Source: Arenicola marina (taxonomy: Eukaryota; Annelida; Polychaeta; Arenicolidae). Taken from it: a stretch of DNA of 64,000 bases. Location: positions 28,271,639 to 28,335,638 of the forward strand of contig OZ025263.1 in NCBI GenBank assembly GCA_964019135.1, written 5' to 3'. This document shows positions 4,933 through 42,600 of this stretch, piece after piece. The notes beneath the pieces were generated by a model. The model saw nothing but the letters and a program-made list of their open reading frames with translations, ran no database searches and was not told the DNA's origin. Position 1 is the first letter of the stretch. Every line of letters begins with the position of its first letter. The translations under genes and the position numbers were made by a program.

Positions 4933-5489
4933 TATATCATTTATATAGATCATAATATGTGTATCAGCCGTATTGCTATGTGGACAGTTTGGAAGCCCTA
5001 ACGGAGAAGACCTCGATCTACTTCAACTGTTCCAGGACCCATTTCTTCAAAGCCTGGGAAACAAATGGAACATGTATCAGAAAACCCGACAAACAGTGCA
5101 AAACATTATACAAGATACGATCTTAAAGGAGTTGTGGGAGACAGATAGCCCTGTAGTGTTATGGTTCCAGGTCTGCATAGATCAGCCGTGGAATATACCC
5201 CGCCGGCACCTTAATTAATCGTTGTCTCAACGAAATCAGTCGATTGACTGCCTTAAAGTGACATCGTTTATTGTGCCCTGCGGTCACGTTCATTGACATA
5301 CATATAGATGAGGCGAACGATTTCCAGAGCAATGGCATCGGTATATTCCCCATTTTAACGCTCAACCTCCCTATTCCGTCAGGTGTACCCACCCCCCCCC
5401 CCCCTCCCCTCCCCGCCCCGTTAGCAAATAATGACATGAGCCTCTTGCGGTATATATATGCCTTGGTGTATACAAATTTGTAAGGGGGG

Positions 5490-5775
5490 AGGGGCAAGCG
5501 GTATTTTCGTTTCTCGGGAATGGGCTTTTCATTTTATCGTGAACTGGGAATGTGGCAAATAATTCTCCGTGAAATGGGCATCGGGCATTCGATGACCGTC
5601 GAGATCAAGGATTTCCATTAGACATTTTATTATTAAATAACCGTGAATCGAGAAATCGCCAATTTATATCATGCAATCCGCCGTTTCTTTGTATGCGTGA
5701 AGTTCGTATTTTAATTAATCGTGACCCGGGATTAAAGAAATTTATTTTTCGTGATCTGGGAACACGACCCACCCC
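5490..5775 (+). repeat. Dispersed repeat with internal CGTGAACTGGGAAT periodicity, copy A
   Basis: It aligns along its length with 31630-31920: TATTTTCGTTTCTCGGGAAT, GGCAAATAATTCTCCGTGAA, GACCGTCGAGATCAAGGAT, ATTAAATAACCGTGAATCG and TTTTTCGTGATCTGGGAA. A 14-base motif related to CGTGAACTGGGAAT recurs roughly every 30 bases, so the element itself may be an old minisatellite. Confidence 0.8.
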
Positions 5776-5796
5776 CCCCCCCACCCCTTACCTCCT

Positions 5797-5893
5797 CCCA
5801 GCAAACACATAACGTTTTTATAACGTTTCTAAAAGGGTTATAACGTAAAAAGAACCTTTTATAAACGTTAAAAAAAGGTTATGTCTTTCCTGG
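5797..5893. mobile_element. 97-bp palindromic MITE
   Basis: It begins CCCAGCAAACACATAACG and ends GGTTATGTCTTTCCTGGG, an inverted terminal repeat of about 30 bases, with internal TATAACGTTT repeats. Too short to code; a foldback remnant. Confidence 0.65.
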
Positions 5894-5931
5894 GCCCCCC
5901 CCCCCCTCCCCTGTAGATGCAGGGTGATGCA

Positions 5932-8900
5932 CTACAGACCGACTGGCAAACCAACCTGCATTCCGTCATATGCCGGCTTGGCATAGGTTTGGACAAACTG
6001 CTCGTTGAGAGGCGTGTCGATGCCTAGTCTGATGCTGGCCTCAAGGGCGCCCTTGCCGTCAAAGTTCACGAAGCACAGCCTCGCGGTGAACTCGTCATCG
6101 GGCCGCAGGAAGGCCGGCCCACCCGCCATCAGCTGCAGCAAGGAATTCATACACATTGACCCAGAAGCCCAACAACGGTAGTACGTATAGGGGCGAATCT
6201 AGGTTATGGGTTTAGGCAACACCCCCCCCCCCCCTGACCCCCTCCCCCCCTCTTGGAAATTTCAAGCATACACTGTCAAAATCAGCTTTTTCGACGAAAT
6301 ACATTGCAATGGTGTGGATATACCCCCTCCCCCCCAAAAAAAATAAATAAAATAAAAATAAATAAATAAATGAAAGCTGAGGTGTAGATAGCCTACCCCC
6401 CCCCCCCCCACCAACCCCCCGATCGTAAAAAAATAGTTTTCACCCCCATCCTCCAACTTTTTCAAATTTCTAAATCCGCCCCTTTAGGCCACAGGGTTAG
6501 GTGGGCTATATATAGCCGATTCTATATGACTGTTTGGCGAGTAAAAATGAGTGCCCGTTCTATTGTCATAAAGCTTGGCCTAAGGGAACACTTTATTTGG
6601 CACTATATATAGACTAAATTCCATATTAGTGACGCATTTCCATTTGTTAGGGTTTCCATGGCTAAATTGGACGGATGTGCGTCATGTTCGTTGTAGTGAA
6701 GTTCGTACCAGCTAGTTCTCACAGCCACACAGACACCAGTACTAACAGCCACGCTAGCCTCAGCCAAGAGGGCCTCGCACATCTGGTCACAGATACCAGT
6801 ACTCACAGCCACGCTAGCCTCACACATCTGGTCACAGATACCAGTACTCACAGCCACGCTAGCCTCACACATCTGGTCACAGATACCAGTACTCACAGCC
6901 ACGCTATCCTCAACCATCTGGTCACAGATACCAGTACTCACAGCCACGCTATCCTCAACCATCTGGTCACAGATACCAGTACTCACAGCCACGCTAGCCT
7001 CACACATCTGGTCACCGATACCAGTACTCACAGCCACGCTAGCCTCAGCCAAGAGGGTCTCACGCATCTGGTCACAGATACCAGTACTCACGGCCACGCT
7101 AGCCTCACACATCTGGTCACAGACAATAGTACTCAGAGCCACGCTAGCCTCACACATCTGGTCACAGATAATAGTACTCACAGCCACGCTAGCCTCAGCC
7201 AAGAGGGCCTCACGCATCTGGTCACAGATATTAGTACTCGCAGCCACGCTTGTCTAGCCTCAGCCAAGAGGGCCTCACACATCTGGTCACAGATAATAGT
7301 ACTCACAGCCACGCTAGCCTCAGCCAAGAGGGCCTCACGCATCTGGTCACAGATAATAGTACTCGCAGCCACGCTTGCCTAGTCTCAGCCAAGAGGGCCT
7401 CACACATCTGGTCACAGATAATAGTACTCACAGCCACGCTAGCCTCAGTCAAGAGGGCCTCACGCATCTGGTCACAGATAATAGTACTCGCAGCCACGCT
7501 TGCCTAGTCTCAGCCAAGAGGGCCTCACACATCTGGTCACAGATAATAGTACTCACAGCCACGCTAGCCTCAGCCAAGAGGGCTTCACGCATCTGGTCAC
7601 AGATAATAGTACTCACAGCCACGCTAGCCTCAGCCAAGAAGGCCTAACGCATCTGGTCACAGATAGCACTACTCGCAGCCACGCTAGCCTCAACCAAGAG
7701 GGCCTCACGCATCTGGTCACAGATACCAGCACTCACGGCCACGCTAGCCTCACACATCTGGTCACAGATAATAGTACTCACAGCCACGCTAGCCTCAGCC
7801 AAGAGGGCCTCGCACATCTGGCTACAGGTGACGATGCCTCTACGTCGCAGCGGCTCGCGCAGTATTTCAAAGTTCGGGAAGATATAGTAACCACCCGAAG
7901 CTCGCAAAACTTCCGCTCCGATTCCATGTAGCTCTCTGGAACAAGATATACAGTGGCAGTTACATGTGACAATTGCGGTTATCCAATAAAGCGCCCATTC
8001 CAGTAAGACACATGTTTGTGTTTTTTTTACTTATCCAACAATCCTACGCCCAGAACAGTAACTGTAACAGTATTAAAGCAGTATTAAACTAACAGTTCAT
8101 GATATAATTTTGGCCAAAATACGTCATAAATCTCGTACCGGAAGCAGTAGTCGGCAACGGCAGCCATGATGCGTGTTGTGTGCGAAATGTAGCGTTCGCA
8201 GTCCTCTTCATCCTTCAGGGCCTAGAAATGACACACAGTGTACAACAGAACATCGCATTAATCGAATGCTTCACCACGTGCTCACAGTGCGAGTCAGTCC
8301 TCATGAAATGTTTTCACAGCACACTGGTGATCTTTGTCAAAGCATGCATACTGCTGACCTTACAGCAACACCCTCAGTAACCTTTGTCATAGCATACTGC
8401 TGACCTTACAGCAACACCCTCAGTAACCTTTGTCATAGCATACCGCTGACCTTAGAAGGGGTCGGCGGGGGCGGAGAGAACACCATTTCCAATCTCCTCG
8501 ATTGGCATTCAGGAATTCTGGGATATTCGCAATTAGCAAATGTTGGGGATCGTTATCCGTACAATTCCGGGTTCAACGCGAATACCCTTTCCCTACTTTA
8601 ATGGGGGTCTATTTCGCGCCTAGACTTGAACAGTCCTTATCTTGGAGATGCGATCTTACTTTTCCTAATTCTTGGGGATTCGCGATTCAGAGTGGGCATT
8701 ACCCCCCCCCCCCACCCGCCCCCCACGTTCCCTGACCTTGGCCACAACATGCTGCTGCTGAACTCAGGAACACCCCACTGACCTTGGCCACGGCATATTG
8801 TTGGGGTGCCGGGGCGCATGAATACGTATGGCTGGCCGCGCTCTTAACAGCATCCTTCAACGCCTTCAGTTCTGGAGGGTAGATCTGGTAGCCTAGCTGC

Positions 8901-11900
8901 AATTCAAATTTTATAATAATTAACTTAATATTATTAAAATGGCATTCGCTCGGGTATAACAGATAATGCTACGTTCGCAAATAGAAAGCCTGCATTTGTT
9001 TGTTTTGCAATATTTAAAATATATTAATACTTCAACTGGTTAAGACTACATCATATTTTCTGACAATATTTAGGAAAATTTTACCAAAAATACCTACCCT
9101 CCAGCCACCAGCACTGGCCCACTTGGACATGCCCGAGCTAAGGATGCAACCTTCTGGGTAGTGCTGCGAACCGCATGGTACAGGTGAACAAATAGTTGCA
9201 TAAGACGGCTGTCATCACATTTGCAATTCATTAAGAATCATGAAAGCGATGAAATGTTTTGTGTGTGGATGTTCCTTTCATCCGCCATGAACTATGGTAA
9301 TTTACCATTCATAACACCCAATTATTACATGCCAAGTGCGCATAAAACGCCTTACTCTAGGAATAAGTAATGTTATTCGGATTAATCATGCATGACGCAC
9401 AAGCAACGATTCGTTTTATTACAAAATTTGATGCAGATATCATGGCATCGACATACAGTAAGTGAATGACAATTAAGTTACCTCTAGAAACGTACGTTCT
9501 CTGAACATCGCGAGAGCAGTATGTATGAGACTTCAACACCGGTCCATGCATATTCAGTACATTTATCCAGTGAAATGTTAGTCTTTAATGTAATATTTCT
9601 CTTAATATGTATGCTATTTGGAATGAGTAATTGTTAATATCTTGAATGTCGTTTTCTGGAGGTATATGCACGATCTTTGTTCGCTAAGTCACATTTTTAC
9701 TAACCCTATAATTTTGCTCAACCGAGCCTAATGCTAATGCAGCTTCCACTCGGATGGGTAAAGCAAAACATTTATGCTGCATTATAATGTTTATGGGAGC
9801 CAGAAATCAGTGTATCGATAGTAAATGTCGCGTTGCATGCTGGGGCCTACTCACGCGTGACAGTGTGTCGTGGTTCTGGTCAAAGTGAAGCCGGGCGTAG
9901 ATCTCATCACAAAGAACCAGGATGTTGTGTTTACGACACACAGCGCTGAAACCCCAACACTGTATACATATAGACACGTATACATAGATGGCTTATTGAG
10001 TTATTACTGTACAAAGTTAAGAATAATAGCTATGGATTTCAACACATGAATGGCAAACAACCTAGAGTATCATAGAACTTATAATTGATACAACCAATGG
10101 ATGACACGAACTGTATCGGGATTGAAGAAGGACCTAAAGTGAATGAAAGGCGGAAAAAGTGGAAAAACAGAACGCGAGAAAGAATCCTAGCAATTCTCAG
10201 TTAGATTAGCGAACTTAAGGCCAATGAAGCTCACAAGTACGACATGCACCCTTCCGGACATCTAGCGCTATACCATACTATGGAGATTGCGCTCTTTTCT
10301 GTGCATTTTAAAGTAGTTTCTTTATATTAGTCCTATAGTCATTGGTCAAATGACAATGAAGTAGCTCAGAGGGTGTACCTGCTCGACACAAGTTATACAG
10401 ACGATCAAAGGATACAAGAAAATGAAAGAGAAGGAGACAGATTTAGGTAAACTACGCGGCTTCGGATAATCGTTGCGATTCTGCTAAAACATGCTAATCT
10501 ATATATATATATGATAAAATTAGTGTTGAGATTGACTATGAACCCCCCCCCCCTTTGCCCCTTCCTTAACTGGCTCACAAGAGAGGAGCGTGACATGACA
10601 AGACCTTAAGGCTTTGAGATGGTCAGCTTGGTAGCACGTCCCGGCTGAAAGAAAACAGGCCGTTACCATGGAAACGTCTACCAGTCACTGCCAGAAGGTA
10701 GACACAATATATCCTTTTAGGTACTTTGAAATAAACGAAAAATCTCATTGGTTAACTATAACCAACATATAATATAATGTTACTTCTGTAACATGAGATC
10801 AATTAGAAGTCAATATATTATTGTCCAGTGTGTTTTATGAATAATCGTCTTTTTTTTTGACAATCTTAGTCTTTGGTCTTTTATCTGCTTATATCGGTTA
10901 CTGGCAGTAGTGACCAGTGCTTGTGACTTTTATAAACATAATCACATCACAATATAAGACAATATGAGACATTAGGAAACAACAATAAATACATACTTGG
11001 GTTGTCTGGATTACACAGAATGAGGATTTTGTTTCCTTGAAGTCCGTTCTCTTCCACAGCCTGAAATTAAATATAATACTTATCACGAAAAACCTGTCAG
11101 TATAGGACATACTATATCATGACTTGTCCCTATTAAATAAACCAATATTAAGTTTTAAAAAGGTACATTTTCATCTCAGTTTGTCGCGGGTTTTGCCACA
11201 GCCTTATATATACATTTTACACAAAATAATGAGAAGAACTCAGGACTCTCTTTGATGACAGACAGATTGCATTGTACACATCGCCATTCAGTGGCTACAG
11301 CGGCAACACAAGGTCGCAATGGCTGACTGTTTAGTTAAACATGTAGGATTGGAAAACAGGCACATAGGCAGTGTGCCTGTTTTTCAATTGCCAATAAAAT
11401 ATGTTTAAACTAAACTTGTAGGAAACAACTTCCCGATCGGCAGGCAACCTGAAGGTTGTGACGTCAGAGCGCTAACCTTTTCAAGGTCATCGGGCGTGAC
11501 TCTCCAGTCGTTTTGGTAGCTACAGTCGACCACGTAAGGTGTTTTTCCCGCAAGGTGGATCTGCGGTTTGTACGTTGTCCATGATGGAGACAACACCATG
11601 ACATCTGTGGAGAGAAGCGGTATGCTTGGAGGCAGAGCCAGAATTGATTTTAGAATGTTCAAATTGCATACAAACAATATCAGTTTTCGCACTTTGAACT
11701 CGCAATTTATAATTCAGTAAACAACAGAAGTTCTTATTGTCATACACAATTGTGAACACAATGATTTTCTTCTAGACATCGTAGACATGGCCCTTTATTC
11801 GGGCGGATAAACGGCACCTCAGTGCCCGCCTGCCTGAAAACTTGACCGCCAAAATTGAAACTGCCCGCCCATCTGGCGGGCAGACTCGCACCTGGTGACA

Positions 11901-14900
11901 AATGTCGGCTCGTAATACTGTATATTATCAATTAAATTTTAACCGTATATGACGCCATATACGCAAATCGTACCTAAAAAAAACAAGAAATTGCTAACCT
12001 GACAGACCCATTCAATATCAAATATAACGCGGAAGGTCAGAATTGTATATATATTATAAATGAGCATATTCACGAAGGGATAATGGAAACATTTCTCTAA
12101 CATTTTAAAACATGGTTGACATTTTTAACATCCAAAGTGCGTCAGTTAACTTACGTAGCACCCATGACGTCGCTGCGACTTTGGCCGATTCGATTCTACT
12201 CAACTTCGCACTGCACAACGCACTTGAATAAAAGTTGCAGCTTTTCGCAAAGGCTCAATTTACTATTTCAGCAAAAAGTAAGCATGGGACGAGTGTGGTC
12301 GCATTAATTTGGCGGGAATGGCTTCAGGAGAAGCAAACACCACGAGTATGTATGAAGCCCGGGTAGCTCAGTCGGTGGGCCTGCCAACTTCTCATCGTCT
12401 TTTATTTATCTTTTGCTGATCGTTGCGATCTTTAATTAGACTGAAGAATGTGATTTTGCCCACGGTAATCACTTCTTTTCTCCGTAGTCATGATCAGGTC
12501 TTCTAAGACTAATCGGAATATTATTCTAAGACTAATCGGAATATTATTCTAAGACTAATCGGAATGTTATTCTAAGACTAATCGGAATATTATTCTAAGA
12601 CTAATCGGAATATTATTCTAAGACTAATCGGAATATTATTCTAAGACTAATCGGAATATTATTCTAAGAATAATCGGAATATTATTCTAAGACTAATCGG
12701 AATATTATTCTAAGACTAATCGGAATATTATTCTAAGACTAATCGGAATATTATTCTAAGACTAATCGGAATATTATTCTAAGACTAATCGGAATATTAT
12801 TCTAAGACTAATCGGAATATTATTCTAAGACTAATCGGAATATTATTCTAAGACTAATCGGAATATTATTCTAAGACTAATCGGAATGTTATTCTAAGAC
12901 TAATCGGAATATTATTCTAAGACTAATCGGAATGTTATTCTAAGACTAATCGGAATATTATTCTAAGACTAATCGGAATATTATTCTAAGAATAATCGGA
13001 ATATTATTCTAAGACTAATCGGAATATTATTCTAAGACTAATCGGAATATTATTCTAAGACTAATCGGAATGTTATTCTAAGACTAATCGGAATATTATT
13101 CTAAGACTAATCGGAATGTTATTCTAAGACTAATCGGAATATTATTCTAAGACTAATCGGAATATTATTCTAAGACTAATCGGAATATTATTCTAAGACT
13201 AATCGGAATATTATTCTAAGACTAATCGGAATGTTATTCTAAGACTAATCGGAATATTATTCTAAGACTAATCGGAATGTTATTCTAAGACTAATCGGAA
13301 TATTATTCTAAGACTAATCGGAATATTATTCTAAGACTAATCGGAATATTATTCTAAGACTAATCGGAATATTATTCTAAGACTAATCGGAATGTTATTC
13401 TAAGACTAATCGGAATATTATTCTAAGACTAATCGGAATGTTATTCTAAGACTAATCGGAATATTATTCTAAGACTAATCGGAATATTATTCTAAGACTA
13501 ATCGGAATGTTATTCTAAGACTAATCGGAATATTATTCTAAGACTAATCGGAATATTATTCTAAGACTAATCGGAATATTATTCTAAGACTAATCGGAAT
13601 ATTATTCTAAGACTAATCGGAATGTTATTCTAAGACTAATCGGAATATTATTCTAAGACTAATCGGAATGTTATTCTAAGACTAATCGGAATATTATTCT
13701 AAGACTAATCGGAATATTATTCTAAGACTAATCGGAATATTATTCTAAGACTAATCGGAATGTTATTCTAAGACTAATCGGAATGTTATTCTAAGACTAA
13801 TCGGAAAATCGTTCTAAGACTAATCGGAATGTTATTCTAAGACTAATCGGAATATTATTCTAAGACTAATCGGAATATTATTCTAAGACTAATCGGAATG
13901 TTATTCTAAGACTAATCGGAATATTATTCTAAGACTAATCGGAATGTTATTCTAAGACTAATCGGAATATTATTTTAAGACTAATCGGAATATTATTCTA
14001 AGACTAATCGGAATATTATTCTAAGACTAATCGGAATATTATTCTAAGACTAATCGGAATATTATTCTAAGACTAATCGGAATATTATTCTAAGACTAAT
14101 CGGAATATTATTCTAAGACTAATCGGAATATTATTCTAAGACTAATCGGAATATTATTCTAAGACTAATCGGAATATTATTCTAAGACTAATCGGAATGT
14201 TATTCTAAGACTAATCGGAATATTATTCTAAGACTAATCGGAATATTATTCTAAGACTAATCGGAATATTATTCTAAGACTAATCGGAATATTATTCTAA
14301 GACTAATCGGAATATTATTCTAAGAATAATCGGAATATTATTCTAAGACTAATCGGAATATTATTCTAAGACTAATCGGAATATTATTCTAAGACTAATC
14401 GGAATATTATTCTAAGACTAATCGGAATATTATTCTAAGACTAATCGGAATATTATTCTAAGACTAATCGGAATATTATTCTAAGACTAATCGGAATATT
14501 ATTCTAAGACTAATCGGAATATTATTCTAAGACTAATCGGAATATTATTCTAAGACTAATCGGAATGTTATTCTAAGACTAATCGGAATATTATTCTAAG
14601 ACTAATCGGAATGTTATTCTAAGACTAATCGGAATATTATTCTAAGACTAATCGGAATATTATTCTAAGAATAATCGGAATATTATTCTAAGACTAATCG
14701 GAATATTATTCTAAGACTAATCGGAATATTATTCTAAGACTAATCGGAATGTTATTCTAAGACTAATCGGAATATTATTCTAAGACTAATCGGAATGTTA
14801 TTCTAAGACTAATCGGAATATTATTCTAAGACTAATCGGAATATTATTCTAAGACTAATCGGAATATTATTCTAAGACTAATCGGAATATTATTCTAAGA

Positions 14901-17099
14901 CTAATCGGAATGTTATTCTAAGACTAATCGGAATATTATTCTAAGACTAATCGGAATGTTATTCTAAGACTAATCGGAATATTATTCTAAGACTAATCGG
15001 AATATTATTCTAAGACTAATCGGAATATTATTCTAAGACTAATCGGAATATTATTCTAAGACTAATCGGAATGTTATTCTAAGACTAATCGGAATATTAT
15101 TCTAAGACTAATCGGAATGTTATTCTAAGACTAATCGGAATATTATTCTAAGACTAATCGGAATATTATTCTAAGACTAATCGGAATGTTATTCTAAGAC
15201 TAATCGGAATATTATTCTAAGACTAATCGGAATATTATTCTAAGACTAATCGGAATATTATTCTAAGACTAATCGGAATATTATTCTAAGACTAATCGGA
15301 ATGTTATTCTAAGACTAATCGGAATATTATTCTAAGACTAATCGGAATGTTATTCTAAGACTAATCGGAATATTATTCTAAGACTAATCGGAATATTATT
15401 CTAAGACTAATCGGAATATTATTCTAAGACTAATCGGAATGTTATTCTAAGACTAATCGGAATGTTATTCTAAGACTAATCGGAAAATCGTTCTAAGACT
15501 AATCGGAATGTTATTCTAAGACTAATCGGAATATTATTCTAAGACTAATCGGAATATTATTCTAAGACTAATCGGAATGTTATTCTAAGACTAATCGGAA
15601 TATTATTCTAAGACTAATCGGAATGTTATTCTAAGACTAATCGGAATATTATTTTAAGACTAATCGGAATATTATTCTAAGACTAATCGGAATATTATTC
15701 TAAGACTAATCGGAATATTATTCTAAGACTAATCGGAATATTATTCTAAGAATAATCGGAATATTATTCTAAGACTAATCGGAATATTATTCTAAGACTA
15801 ATCGGAATATTATTCTAAGACTAATCGGAATATTATTCTAAGACTAATCGGAATATTATTCTAAGACTAATCGGAATATTATTCTAAGACTAATCGGAAT
15901 ATTATTCTAAGACTAATCGGAATATTATTCTAAGACTAATCGGAATGTTATTCTAAGACTAATCGGAATATTATTCTAAGACTAATCGGAATATTATTCT
16001 AAGACTAATCGGAATATTATTCTAAGACTAATCGGAATGTTATTCTAAGACTAATCGGAATATTATTCTAAGACTAATCGGAATGTTATTCTAAGACTAA
16101 TCGGAATATTATTCAGGCGGCCCCAGCAACTCACCACCTCCGACGGTCTAAACTGGAGTAACGTGCGAGCAAGATAAAATCCTTGTAGAGTAGAACATAG
16201 GCGTTACCTCCATTGAAAATGCTAAGCAAGAGGAAGATGAGCTCCTTGGTGCCTGGTGCCACAATGACCTGGTCAGGGTGGAGGCCGGTCAGTCTATCAT
16301 AGCGCTCGTGAAACCTGCAGAGGACCTCTCGCAACTCAAGGATGCCTGAAAATCAGTAGGATATATTTTCCTATAACATAGGGAACATCAATTCTTTCTC
16401 CTTCGAGGAAATCAAAGACGTAAAATCGATATGTTACATGGCATATATACGCTGTAATGCCTAGGGAACGAACGTTGTAAACTTTAAGTTACATACATGG
16501 GCGTGTCCATGGGAGGTGTACAGGGGGCACGAGCCTCCACCTTACAGATCCTAACGTAGGTTTAGGTTTTTCTATTAGGTTTCTGAATTTACAGAATGAA
16601 AAGTTTTCTAAAAATTGTGATATTAATATATCGCCTGGGCTTAGATTGGCGGGAATAGCGCGACAAGCAACTTTAATCTATAGTCATTATTTGGTTACTT
16701 CTCACCAGCCACTGGGAGGTACGCGTTCTCCCCCGCGTGCTCTCTCAGGGCCTTCACCATGCCCTCCAGCACTGGGAACGGGGCCTGGCCAAACCCGAAG
16801 TGGTAGATAGTCCGACCAGCCTTCTGCTGTTCTCGTATAATCTCGTTAAAGGCGAGATTAGAGGCCGGGCAATAGTCCACCAAGTCCGGTCGAACCAAAC
16901 CGGAAGTGTTGGATTTCTGCTGATTGGTCAGTTCTCGATTGTCCATCTTGGTAGTCATGGTAACGGCAGACGCTTTTGAGATCTTCATTGGCAAGTCGGC
17001 GTTGGTGGTGACTGTTGATGTTTCCGTCATGACGCCAAGCAGTCTGGAATGTTTCTTAATGAGCTGTACTGCTATTCGTCGCGTGTTGATACTCAGCAT
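5932..17099 (-). CDS. PLP-dependent class I/II aminotransferase, probably mitochondrial (11 exons, 490 aa)
   Basis: Exons in coding order: 17099-16706, 16345-16208, 11604-11477, 11060-10997, 10644-10605, 9945-9855, 9163-9098, 8896-8783, 8221-8139, 7935-7782, 6132-5932. They total 1473 bases, all flanked by AG/GT, with every phase joining. Fold-type I landmarks are in order: APGTKE (about 161-166), aromatic pair in PSWTTY (about 184-189), NPDNPTG (237-243, the Asn that contacts the PLP ring), DEIYA with Asp268 and Tyr271, SMSK with Schiff-base Lys299 followed by GGWRLG, and Arg442 in FTARLCF as the likely substrate-carboxylate Arg. The first 25 residues (MLSINTRRIAVQLIKKHSRL...) are basic and free of acidic residues, like a mitochondrial presequence. 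The first coding exon follows an acceptor at 17109, so a 5' UTR exon probably lies upstream. Class I aminotransferases move amino groups between amino and keto acids; the substrate here is unknown. A possible AATAAA at 5631-5626 lies in a dispersed repeat. No close named vertebrate gene is recognised. Confidence 0.93.
6188..6486. mobile_element. Related G/C-rich MITE-like element in aminotransferase intron 10
   Basis: The left end TAGGGGCGAATCTAGG and right end CTAAATCCGCCCCTTTA form an imperfect inverted repeat. The interior has C runs and an AAATAAATAAA microsatellite. It lies between the last exon (6132) and the minisatellite. Confidence 0.6.
6730..7830 (-). repeat. 45/60-bp minisatellite derived from aminotransferase exon 10 end plus its splice donor
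   Basis: About 20 tandem units fill intron 10, starting inside exon 10 itself. On the minus strand each unit reads as the exon end (QMCEALLAEASVA codons), then GTGAGT, then a short stretch ending CCAG. Full units are 60 bases; many lack 15 bases (the ALLAE part) and are 45. A larger 125-base period (7240-7620) is superimposed. By eye about 14 of 20 units keep GTGAGT (ACTCAC on +), one has GTTAGT and five are changed, mostly to GCGAGT. The proximal unit supplies the real donor at 7781-7776. Read-through from exon 10 stays open for about three units, to a stop near 7646. Confidence 0.92.
8325..8790 (-). repeat. 46-bp tandem array derived from aminotransferase exon 8 end plus donor, split by an insertion
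   Basis: At the exon 8 donor (8782-8777), CTGACCTTGGCCAC recurs 46 bases away (8732 and 8778 on +). A second block at 8345-8455 has the same 46-base period (CTGCTGACC at about 8349, 8395 and 8441) and aligns to the first at about three quarters of positions. Each unit carries a copy of the exon end (CAATATGCCGTGGCCAAG-like) followed by GT. The two blocks are separated by a dispersed C-rich repeat (8456-8727), so the array seems older than that insertion. Confidence 0.7.
8456..8727 (+). repeat. Dispersed repeat inserted into the 46-bp array of aminotransferase intron 8
   Basis: It includes TTCCGGGTTCAACGCGAATA, ATTTCGCGCCTAGACTTGAA, CAGTCCTTATCTTGGAGATG and GGGGATTCGCGATTCAGAG, collinear with 19770-19990 and, for its second half, 3286-3400. 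It splits an older tandem array. Confidence 0.7.
11797..11900 (+). repeat. Dispersed 100-bp repeat (partner at 49736)
   Basis: GGGCGGATAAACGGCACCTC, AGTGCCCGCCTGCCTGAAAA and GCCCGCCCATCTGGCGGGCA match the copy at 49736 in order. It lies in aminotransferase intron 2. Confidence 0.75.
12356..12400 (+). repeat. tRNA 5'-half-like fragment
   Basis: GCCCGGGTAGCTCAGTCGGT matches the 5' end and A box of many tRNAs, but no anticodon arm or B box follows. It lies about 100 bases before the 23-bp satellite. Confidence 0.45.
12501..16114. repeat. 23-bp satellite array (about 157 copies) in aminotransferase intron 2
   Basis: The unit begins CTAAGACTAATCGGAATATT and is 23 bases; it runs without interruption for 3.6 kb. 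Variants are few: ATATT or ATGTT, and rare GAATAATCGG, AAAATCGTT and TATTTTAAG forms. The rare AAAATCGTT and TATTTTAAG units each occur twice, both pairs 1679 bases apart (13802/15481 and 13971/15650), which is 73 units, so a large internal block was duplicated. The array lies between exons 2 and 3 of the aminotransferase and ends 94 bases from exon 2. It has no spacers. Confidence 0.97.
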
Positions 17100-17109
17100 G
17101 CGTATCTGA

Positions 17110-39694: not shown

Positions 39695-42600
39695 CTATAG
39701 TATCACACAACATCTGCAGTATCGTTGTCGTCCTCCCCCGACAGAGGGCGGTGGGGTCACGGGGGCAAAGTACGCGTGTACTTTAATATTAGGCAAATGG
39801 TTCTGAAAATGAAATTCAACCATTAGTAAAGATGATCTTTCAACAAGGAGAAGAGGGTCGTTCTTCCACATCAGGGCGCACCATTGTTTCAGCGTAGCTC
39901 ACGTATAACTCACGCCTATCATTTACTACAGTACTCCTTTTCGTGGGCTCTTGCCCGGACGATCGCTGACGCAGAGTATGATCATAATGGAAACTTACAA
40001 AATGCAGGTAACATAAGGCATATGTGAATCAATGCGGCATATTTACATATGTGGCGCAATACTAACTTGGACCTCCGTAGTGTTCGATATCACAGTTTCT
40101 TATAAATTATATACGATATTTATAGAGTTAAGTACCACACATTTTCCACATACACTAACAATGCCACATTGCGTGTTCCCGTAATACGATTAAGCTTAAT
40201 GAATTATTTCTGCACGTTTAACGTAAACGATACTAAATGGACCATTCTGCCCGGCGATCTGAGACAGCTAGCTGGAGACTGAGACACCGGCGATCTGAGA
40301 CAGCTAGCTATAGACTGAGACACCGGCGATCTGAGACAGCTAGCTGGAGACTGAGACGCCGGCGATCTGAGACAGCTAGCTGGAGACTGAGACACCGGCG
40401 ATCTGAGACAGCTAGCTGGAGACTGAGACACCGGCGATCTGAGACAGCTAGCTGGAGACTGAGACACCGGCGATCTGAGACAGCTAGCTATAGACTGAGA
40501 CACCGGCGATCTGAGACAGCTAGCTGGAGACTGAGACACCGGCGATCTGAGACAGCTAGCTGGAGACTGAGACACCGGCGATCTGAGACAGCTAGCTATA
40601 GACTGAGACACCGGCGATCTGAGACAGCTAGCTGGAGACTGAGACACCGGCGATCTGAGACAGCTAGCTGGAGACTGAGACAGCGGCGATCTGAGACAGC
40701 TAGCTGGAGACTGAGACACCGGCGATCTGAGACAGCTAGCTGGAGACTGAGACACCGGCGATCTGAGACAGCTAGCTATAGACTGAGACACCGGCGATCT
40801 GAGACAGCTAGCTGGAGACTGAGACACCGGCGATCTGAGACAGCTAGCTGGAGACTGAGACACCGGCGATCTGAGACAGCTAGCTGGAGACTAAGACGCC
40901 GGCGTTCATGGAGTTTTTGTAATGATCGAGCGACCTTCACCTTGAGTCTACGAATTCCGGCCCGAGTGATTAGCTGACAGTCGTAGAGTTCGATGCGTTC
41001 CAGGCTCTGACAACCCTGCAATATAGGGAGAGAAGTAGGTACCAAGTACCTCAGAAACCGTCACAAGTCAGCGGGTCAAACAGACGCAGAACAGCGCCAT
41101 TAAGTATTGCTATGACGAGAGTATTTAAGATCGTATATCATGTCAAGGTTTCAGGTAGTTTATAAATAATGTTAGATTAACAACACCGAAGACACACAAT
41201 TTGATATACGGTAATGTTCAACATTCAGTTTTAACTTTCTGACTCATATAATTCCTCTTACAAAAGTAATCATGACAAACACAAAATTCAATAGAACATG
41301 ACAAATAACGCCATCTTGGTGAAAACAGTTGAATATTCATAGTATGGCATATATGTAGTTGCGCAAGTTAACTGGGTTCTCTTAGACGGCAACATATTTG
41401 ATACCACCACCATTCCTTCCAATGCAAGGGCAAGTTTTGTCCTCCAGTCACCGTGGTTGTGGTTTAATACCAGTGTCAAAACATGTATCGTGTGGTCTAT
41501 GCAAGCCACATGTAACTCCACAGTGAGAACGCACGGTTCTGATGATAAGTCGGATGATTGTTTCAACACAAACATTGGTAAATTTCACCCTGAGAGGCAA
41601 CAAATCGTCGGTATCAAGAAGTGAGCGGGAGGGAAATTAAGTTAAATTAAATCTTAGTCCCTTAAGTTGAACGTGTCTGTAGCAGAAATTAATCAATTAA
41701 AAATTGTGCCGCCATTCTTGATTAATAGACATGGGTAATAGTCGTAAGTCGGTCAACAGCACTTTGAAGGCAATCCATATATCGCCATACACGGTGTATT
41801 GTAGTACAGCTTGTCGGATCCAAGTTACATTTATAGTCACGTTCATTCCTCGCAAAACCCATTAACACAAGACATCACACATCTGATTCCACTTCTGAAG
41901 CGTTCCTGTTCCTGATAACTATAGTATTACTATGAAAACTATAGCAATACTACAGTATTCGTAGCGAGACTATAGGTTTATTTCATACTATAGAAGCGTT
42001 GCTCCCGAAGGAGCAACCTAAGCTACGCATGCCAATGAAGGTAGTCATAGATACCTGTACCTGTAAGTGCTCCAGGGACGCATCGGTGATCAGGGGGCAG
42101 TTGTCGAGCTCCAGCACCGTGAGGGACTCTGTAGCACACGTGCTGCCCCCTAGGTGTCGGATTCCCTCGTCCGTGATGAGTTCACAATGGGATAAGCTCT
42201 GCAAGGCACACATAAAACATACAGCGGGGTATCATTTCAGCATCTGTTATGAATCGACTTGGAATCGCATCTTTTATATGATGTCTGTGTGGTCGCAGGA
42301 TAAAGATCTCATGTCCTTCTTCGCAAAGAGTAGGGGGTTACCCCCGGGGACATGGCTCCACTCTCCCTTCCTTCTCCCATGACGCGATATGACCAAAGGG
42401 GGTTAAAGCGTCCTGAATACACAACCATCTTGTATATGCCATTTTAAGGACTGATCCCAAGATTACGAGCAATGACAATAAGCGTCATACAATGATTACT
42501 AGTGTGAATTGCAATTGGCTTCCAGACCGTAATGTTTCCCATATATCCATAATAAATTCAGTCCAATACAGGTTTCATCTTTTATGAGATTTCAGTGCAA

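Follow-up and report, generated by a model that had tools for sequence, protein, structure and literature searches.

The window analysed here (64,000 nt of the Arenicola marina genome) carries on its minus strand a gene for a class I/II aminotransferase, the 12 exons of which join into a single open frame of 494 residues and a stop codon. Exon edges were set by eye at AG/GT signals and by frame, and the resulting predicted protein matches the Pfam family Aminotran_1_2 with an E-value of 5.6e-53. In a collection consisting of bacteria and archaea only, relatives are encoded in 10 bacterial loci, and the nearest of them, from a Neomarinimicrobiota MAG, is 41% identical over residues 69-491. To find a paralogue that shares intron 10, searches were made by family, where nine of the 42 aminotransferase-family candidates were scored, and by sequence, where just this gene's own two exons came back. 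Intron 2 holds 3.6 kb of 23-nt repeats (window 12501-16114, the first repeat 94 nt past the donor), the unit of which contains no donor; this is an ordinary intronic minisatellite beside the boundary-spanning arrays (mirages) treated below. Elsewhere in the window, a 36-nt array at 40251-40904 can be read without a stop in one frame per strand, over 228 and 246 codons.

Intron 10 measures 1649 nt, following an intron 9 of 203 nt, and it begins with copies of its own start. The end of exon 10 with its donor is followed by 19 further copies, and the repeated block, CAGATG..GTGGCT,GTGAGT..GAC, occurs 20 times from 7820 onward. The unit consists of exon end plus donor, with the true end of the exon as copy 1, such that the tandem unit lies across the exon-intron boundary, as the term mirage implies. 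When the donor context (20 nt on each side) was compared with the downstream intron, it scored 82, whereas the highest of 100 Markov shuffles reached 25. The array, which a preliminary description of this DNA had placed here as an amplified exon end and donor, is therefore real, running on the minus strand from 7820 to about 6717, and the description's estimates of about 20 copies and about 14 perfect donors agree with the 20 units counted and with GTGAGT in 14 of them; the remaining donors are GCGAGT (four units), CTGAGT (one) and GTTAGT (one).

The complete units 1 to 19 measure 60, 45, 60, 60, 60, 65, 60, 65, 60, 65, 60, 45, 45, 60, 45, 45, 45, 45 and 45 nt, that is, eight of 60 nt (the exon copy included), eight of 45 nt, which lack 15 nt, and three of 65 nt, which carry 5 additional nt and a GC donor. 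These last three (units 6, 8 and 10 of the 19) contradict the proposal that units are 45 or 60 bases and always a multiple of three, and since the units are copies of one another, the 16 of 19 that are multiples of three do not constitute independent evidence. Similarly, the putative micro-exons from CCAG to the donor, given as 36-51 bases, actually contain 36 nt in the 60-nt units, 21 nt in the 45-nt units and 41 nt in the 65-nt units. The inner units have variants in common and a 60+65 pattern, which amounts to a higher-order pattern of 125 nt with shared and private unit variants in order, while CAGATGTGCGAG is found only in units 1 and 20.

Table 1. Positions of the features discussed (window coordinates, unless a contig, C, or locus, L, is named)
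Feature	Position	Strand	Remark
Aminotransferase class I/II gene	5018..17105	minus	12 coding exons, 494 aa
Aminotransferase exons 1-6	17105-16706, 16345-16208, 11604-11477, 11060-10997, 10644-10605, 9945-9855	minus	
Aminotransferase exons 7-12	9163-9098, 8896-8783, 8221-8139, 7935-7782, 6132-5956, 5053-5018	minus	
Exon 10	7782..7935	minus	ends ..SQMCEALLAEASVA; unit 1 takes its exonic part from the final 39 nt
Donor 1, predicted authentic GTGAGT of intron 10	7776..7781	minus	all 9 bacterial homologues aligned lack an insertion at its junction
Mirage array, 20 units	6717..7820	minus	unit 20 runs into single-copy intron
In-frame TAG in unit 4	7644..7646	minus	terminates every predicted product from donor position 4 onward
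Unit 6, 65 nt	7471..7535	minus	5-nt insertion, GCGAGT
Units 8 and 10, 65 nt	7410-7346 and 7285-7221	minus	GCGAGT
Vestigial copy GTGGCTGTGAGA (GTGGCT,GTGAGA)	6717..6728	minus	distal edge, followed by single-copy intron
Older, degenerate exon 8 donor repeat in intron 8	8340..8785	minus	
AASS intron array	L065:1982-6501 and L071:1-1143, C1		138 copies of exon end and GTGAG
ALDH1L donor arrays	L066:1766-8309 and 9040-9703, C1		two of three introns seen
C10 stretch, read as one intron	C10:25797649-25806897 (L020:4650-9001, L021:1-4897)	minus	both ends amplified

Each donor position was joined in silico to exons 11 and 12 in order to predict the corresponding product. Donor 1 gives 494 residues. Donor 2 (GCC,GTGAGT; +45 nt) would add 15 residues and yield 509 with a normal C-terminus, as would donor 3 (+105 nt, +35 residues, 529 in total), whereas the other 17 of the 19 downstream positions lead to a product of 469 residues that is ended by the TAG of unit 4, before Arg442. 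The suggestion that the second or third donor would add 15-20 residues per unit in frame agrees with the predicted product of donor 2, which has GT; donor 3 is GCGAGT and would add 35 residues. With that TAG and two full-length products from 19 donors, the predicted products form no ladder of fourteen in-frame isoforms, and the array could yield at most one full-length variant through a GT donor and one through a GC donor. Several splice donors are reportedly supplied by a minisatellite in human IFI6; an IFI6-like ladder, in which successive donors keep the frame open, is not what is found here, owing to the TAG and to the three 65-nt units.

Comparison with the homologues points to the donor that is probably used. 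Proteins from nine of the 10 bacterial loci were aligned (L032, which matched just residues 60-122, was excluded), and at the junction after residue 424 nothing is inserted in any of the nine. The residues there are mainly VA,LLPG or VA,LLPA, with VV, IA, VLP and FLP in single sequences; five positions past the junction the bacterial proteins are short of one residue, which was counted against the mirage reading. Arg442 is Arg in all nine and stands 18 residues beyond the junction, exactly where the preliminary description had located the insert relative to it. Donor 1 therefore makes the conserved protein, and because the exon end aligns with coding sequence of the homologues, the direction of copying was from exon to array and not the reverse.

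Donor strength is unable to explain such a choice, since the nine letters from -3 to +6 are identical to those of donor 1 in 11 of the 13 GTGAGT decoys. Position may. Exon definition has been reported to pair those splice sites that lie nearest to each other across the exon, with a stronger preference for the upstream donor in a category labelled SL (PMC9225289), which we take to mean a short upstream and a long downstream intron, as with the introns 9 and 10 of this gene. Under intron definition, that study has the downstream donor, nearest to the 3′ site, as the favoured one; here this would give truncated products, so that the choice of donor 1 is a real prediction rather than a formality.

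The reading that we prefer, with a probability of roughly 0.8, is that the intron 10 array is a donor-side mirage, a minisatellite across an exon-intron boundary, which is tolerated because donor 1 is still used. A short stretch straddling the junction of exon 10 with intron 10 would have been duplicated in tandem, and the array would have grown by unequal exchange or slippage. The spliceosome would still take donor 1, nearest to the exon's own acceptor as exon definition has it, which would leave the 19 copies as ordinary intron; the array would be nearly neutral and functionless, perhaps with mis-splicing at a low rate and mostly truncated products, and a like process would have acted on other genes of the genome. 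Between the two possibilities raised in the preliminary description, a ladder of isoforms next to the active site and a splicing hazard that is tolerated, the second fits best, on the presumption that donor 1 is chosen; the first finds no support in two full-length products from 19 downstream donors, the TAG in unit 4 and nine of nine homologues that lack an insertion.

Some traces of the founding event may be preserved. The spacer ACTATTATCTGTGACCAG (the ATTATC form) is identical at 11 of 18 positions to the exon codons upstream of the CAGATG of unit 1, all seven differences being transitions, and the form ACTGGTATCTGTGACCAG (GGTATC) is likewise identical at 11 of 18, with six transitions and one transversion. 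Elsewhere on the strand, matches of at least 11 of 18 are reached by 85 of 62,811 18-mers for the first form and by 72 of 62,811 for the second. These figures support, if less strongly, the view that the spacer was itself copied from the exon codons ahead of it and has since decayed, in which case the founding unit would probably have been about 54 nt of exon plus GTGAGT. The vestigial copy at the far edge is a candidate for the ancestral intron start, since this is where duplication would leave it.

Intron 10 is not alone in the gene. Exon 8 closes with GTGGCCAAG,GTCAG, where AAGGT at 8785 marks its actual end; a second copy stands 46 nt further down, at 8739, and after an interruption AAGGT reappears every 23 nt at 8453, 8430, 8407, 8384 and 8361. 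The donor copy scores 28, with a maximum of 27 in 100 shuffles, and the stretch 8460-8340 scores 23 against the exon-8 boundary, with a maximum of 16 in 500 shuffles; the period of 46/23 nt is frame-shifting. When both ends of all 11 introns were examined (22 tests), the donor repeats of introns 8 and 10 scored higher than any of 100 shuffles, borderline donor scores, uncorrected for the 22 tests, were obtained for introns 11 (3 of 100 shuffles) and 9 (4 of 100), and among acceptor repeats the best score was equalled in 12 of 100 shuffles.

The search was extended to the genome (867 Mb in 762 contigs), with unit counts that include the exon copy and permit 35% mismatch. Its mitochondrial contig, C762 (15,942 nt), carries on one strand cox1, cox2, cox3, nad6, cob, atp6, nad5, nad4L, nad4, tRNA-Val, nad1, nad3 and nad2, genes that were read from frames except for cox1 (family search) and tRNA-Val (ARAGORN); cox1 contains five AGA codons and no AGG. 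The gene order is presumably the annelid one, and we take the AGA sites of cox1 to be conserved Ser.

Among the matches listed for three successive copies of AGGTRAGT, four arrays lie in the first 1.76 Mb of C1, and three of them were traced back to an exon. In the gene for AASS, an exon ending ..AQEPNMALLDAILEK,GTGAG is followed by 138 units of 41 nt (36 of exon and 5 of intron), after which the coding sequence resumes with NIRLIDYEKM... When joined at the first donor, 110 of 110 residues align ungapped to the best PDB chain, 8e8t (alpha-aminoadipic semialdehyde synthase, E 2.6e-47), and reading through the array meets a stop 21 nt beyond donor 1. ALDH1L has two arrays: the first (a) follows ..RYFAGWCDKIQ,GTAAGT with 157 units of 39 nt (168.5 according to TRF) and precedes GKTIPINHARP.., and the second (b), two exons further on, follows ..NTVVLKPAQ with 21 units of 28 nt (24 by TRF). 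Joined at the first donors, again 110 of 110 residues align ungapped to the best PDB chain, here 7yjj (cytosolic 10-formyltetrahydrofolate dehydrogenase, E 9.6e-61); past donor 1, translation into the 39-nt array would run for 576 nt before a stop. Donor arrays thus recur in two other genes, with three arrays between them.

Recurrence in two more genes is likely. A lustrin-like exon ending ..CCPLAPST has 14 units of 34 nt, its family match being under the Pfam cut-off (24.9 of 27 bits, E 2.5e-5). In the C10 stretch, the donor side comprises 147 units of 49 nt (..CTCCTCTATCACACAG,GTCAGT), adjoined by about 34 units of 61 nt on the acceptor side that include the start of the next exon; this gene has no Pfam match at E up to 1 and nothing in the PDB better than E 0.14, so that its exon boundaries are putative, read from the open frame and the splice letters. 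A kinship of the C10 array with the aminotransferase array as one shared repeat family was considered and rejected, the similarity being 68-70% and to the opposite strand. Two further repeats were noted. A 42-nt array with CAGATAAGT/CAGGTAAGT in its unit fills all 9 kb read at C1:1090500-1099500 (L067:1-9001); as its edges lie outside the region, this array (C1:1094677) was excluded from the exon-anchored list. At C1:18776685-18776821, among the matches listed, a CTGTGAGT repeat has a unit of about 64 nt that resembles coding sequence ending at a donor.

These arrays bear on the alternatives. If several array donors or micro-exons were used in frame, the loop before Arg442 would be longer by 7, 12, 15 or 35 residues, and there would indeed be a ladder of isoforms. 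Donors 2 and 3, the latter with GC, retain the full C-terminus, CCAG precedes each downstream unit such that 36- or 21-nt micro-exons would be in frame, and more than one splice donor within a human minisatellite has been published (Turri 1995, going by its title). Nevertheless, 17 of 19 downstream positions give the product that lacks Arg442, and none of the nine homologues has an insertion. From a donor to the CCAG that follows it there are 24 nt, less than an intron needs, and micro-exons would therefore have to skip units. Beyond this array, the periods seen are 41, 39, 28, 34, 49, 61 and 46 nt (the last in intron 8), of which only 39 is a multiple of three, the other six shifting the frame, and in the five other arrays the donor letters show no consistent conservation and no consistent loss. 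We regard such a ladder as unlikely.

A slightly less probable alternative still is that the decoys are functional, the donor copies recruiting U1 snRNP, raising intron splicing or blocking premature polyadenylation, and that they are kept by selection. GT is intact in nearly all units of the five other arrays (155 of 157 and 20 of 21 in ALDH1L, 135 of 138 in AASS, 147 of 147 in C10 and 14 of 14 in the lustrin-like gene), but three of these were found via perfect donors, which biases them toward intact ones, and the aminotransferase array has lost GTGAGT in six of 20 units. More specifically, the eight donor letters were compared with every 8-nt window of the unit, a low rank meaning conservation. 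By frequency, they rank 21 of 39 and 19 of 28 in ALDH1L arrays a and b, 17 of 41 in AASS, 2 of 49 in C10 and 2 of 34 in the lustrin-like gene; by variant types, the ranks in the same order are 12, 27, 32, 6 and 3, and by singletons 26, 26, 35, 17 and 5. In C10 and the lustrin-like gene the donor letters are less variable than most windows, which was counted against a neutral mirage, but the five arrays taken together do not show donor windows varying consistently less than the rest of the unit, and their ranks give no consistent sign of decoys being kept or purged.

It is very unlikely that intron 10 itself is new, gained by tandem duplication of coding sequence (a Rogers-type gain), with the array as a remnant of the duplicated exon. 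In its favour, the unit possibly comprises about 54 nt of exon with GTGAGT, and amphioxus globins have been proposed to have gained introns from mirages (PMC3087553). However, the model has both intron ends inside the duplicated unit, and for intron 10 they are not: 584 nt of other intron separate the array from the acceptor at 6133, and the start of exon 11 lies outside the repeat, its acceptor context scoring 14, a value reached by all 100 shuffles, the mean of which is 18.3. An assembly artefact is scarcely credible, for although tandem arrays are often misassembled and one assembly was examined, the units differ by shared and private variants in order and show the 125-nt pattern, and the sole full-length match in the genome (in a search that skips very common words) is this locus.

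The tolerated mirage preferred here raises the question of how common such arrays are. Triple AGGTRAGT, with copies 33-63 nt apart, has 20,564 matches against 6,399 for the reversed motif (3.2-fold), while the single motif has 85,319 against 59,587 (1.4-fold). For triple AGGTAYGT at the same spacing the counts are 11,639 and 8,836 (1.3-fold), and for triple CTGTGAGT, the aminotransferase type, at 38-68 nt they are 8,288 and 5,058 (1.6-fold). Permuted controls are mixed: GGATRTGA (6,118; its reverse 7,972) is about as low as the reversed donor motif, whereas GATGRTGA (25,853; its reverse 27,404) exceeds the donor motif in both directions. The GATGRTGA matches listed fall in GATGATGA-rich repeats and the permutation was badly chosen, yet this control counts against a simple argument from counts. 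As matches are dominated by large arrays, the enrichment is shown only loosely. Clusters among the matches listed number four in 1.76 Mb for AGGTRAGT, six in 9.2 Mb for AGGTAYGT, eight in 22.7 Mb for CTGTGAGT, four in 15.3 Mb for GGATRTGA and one in 0.21 Mb for GATGRTGA, rates that are rough, the single-motif matches listed missing minus-strand rows present in the triple search. The counts do no more than suggest that such arrays favour splice boundaries. A broader possibility, to which we would give somewhat less than even odds, is that in this annelid lineage splice boundaries are favoured birthplaces of minisatellites, that hundreds of genes have exon-anchored donor arrays and some acceptor arrays, that introns grow thereby, and that the spliceosome, since it pairs its sites across the exon, can disregard up to about 150 near-identical decoy donors in a single intron.

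Boundary-spanning minisatellites appear in the literature for amphioxus and human genes. Amphioxus mirages are described (PMC3087553, PMC3902484) as minisatellite-like tandem duplications across exon-intron boundaries, on the 5′ or 3′ side, that do not interfere with regular splicing; the genes are Adh, the globins BflGb6 and BflGb9, and, from PMC3902484, TnC and PGBD5. The boundary-spanning unit is common to both systems, and in amphioxus many copies keep AG/GT signals and units measure 10-160 bp. The present host is an annelid, and other genes here reach 138-157 copies, compared with 6 and 3 in the two BflGb6 haplotypes described there; our array is known from the DNA of one assembly. In human duplicated genes, internal tandem repeats also occur at exon-intron boundaries, and 27 intron modifications were kept after inspection (PMC2812944); there, altered splicing has transcript support, while the annelid array is read from genomic sequence. 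The minisatellite of Turri 1995 resembles ours in supplying several donors to one transcript region, but its title has the extra donors in the transcript, whereas here the frame closes in unit 4 and three units shift it. In C. elegans, other intronic minisatellites have been linked to alternative splicing (PMC4039745). No annelid report of boundary-spanning minisatellites was among the literature matches listed, subscription journals being mostly outside their scope, and the literature search returned no paper combining minisatellite, splice sites and polychaete. The kind of array is thus already known, and the phylum seems to be new.

That mirages occur in an annelid, in several genes, a single intron holding about 150 near-identical donors, speaks against their being an oddity of lancelets. 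Gene predictors might extend exons into such arrays, which would be a warning for annotation. These arrays are natural constructs for an old question, that of the choice among many equal 5′ splice sites, and if splice boundaries are indeed the birthplaces of minisatellites in this lineage, the genome would be a ready natural test of a first-donor rule.
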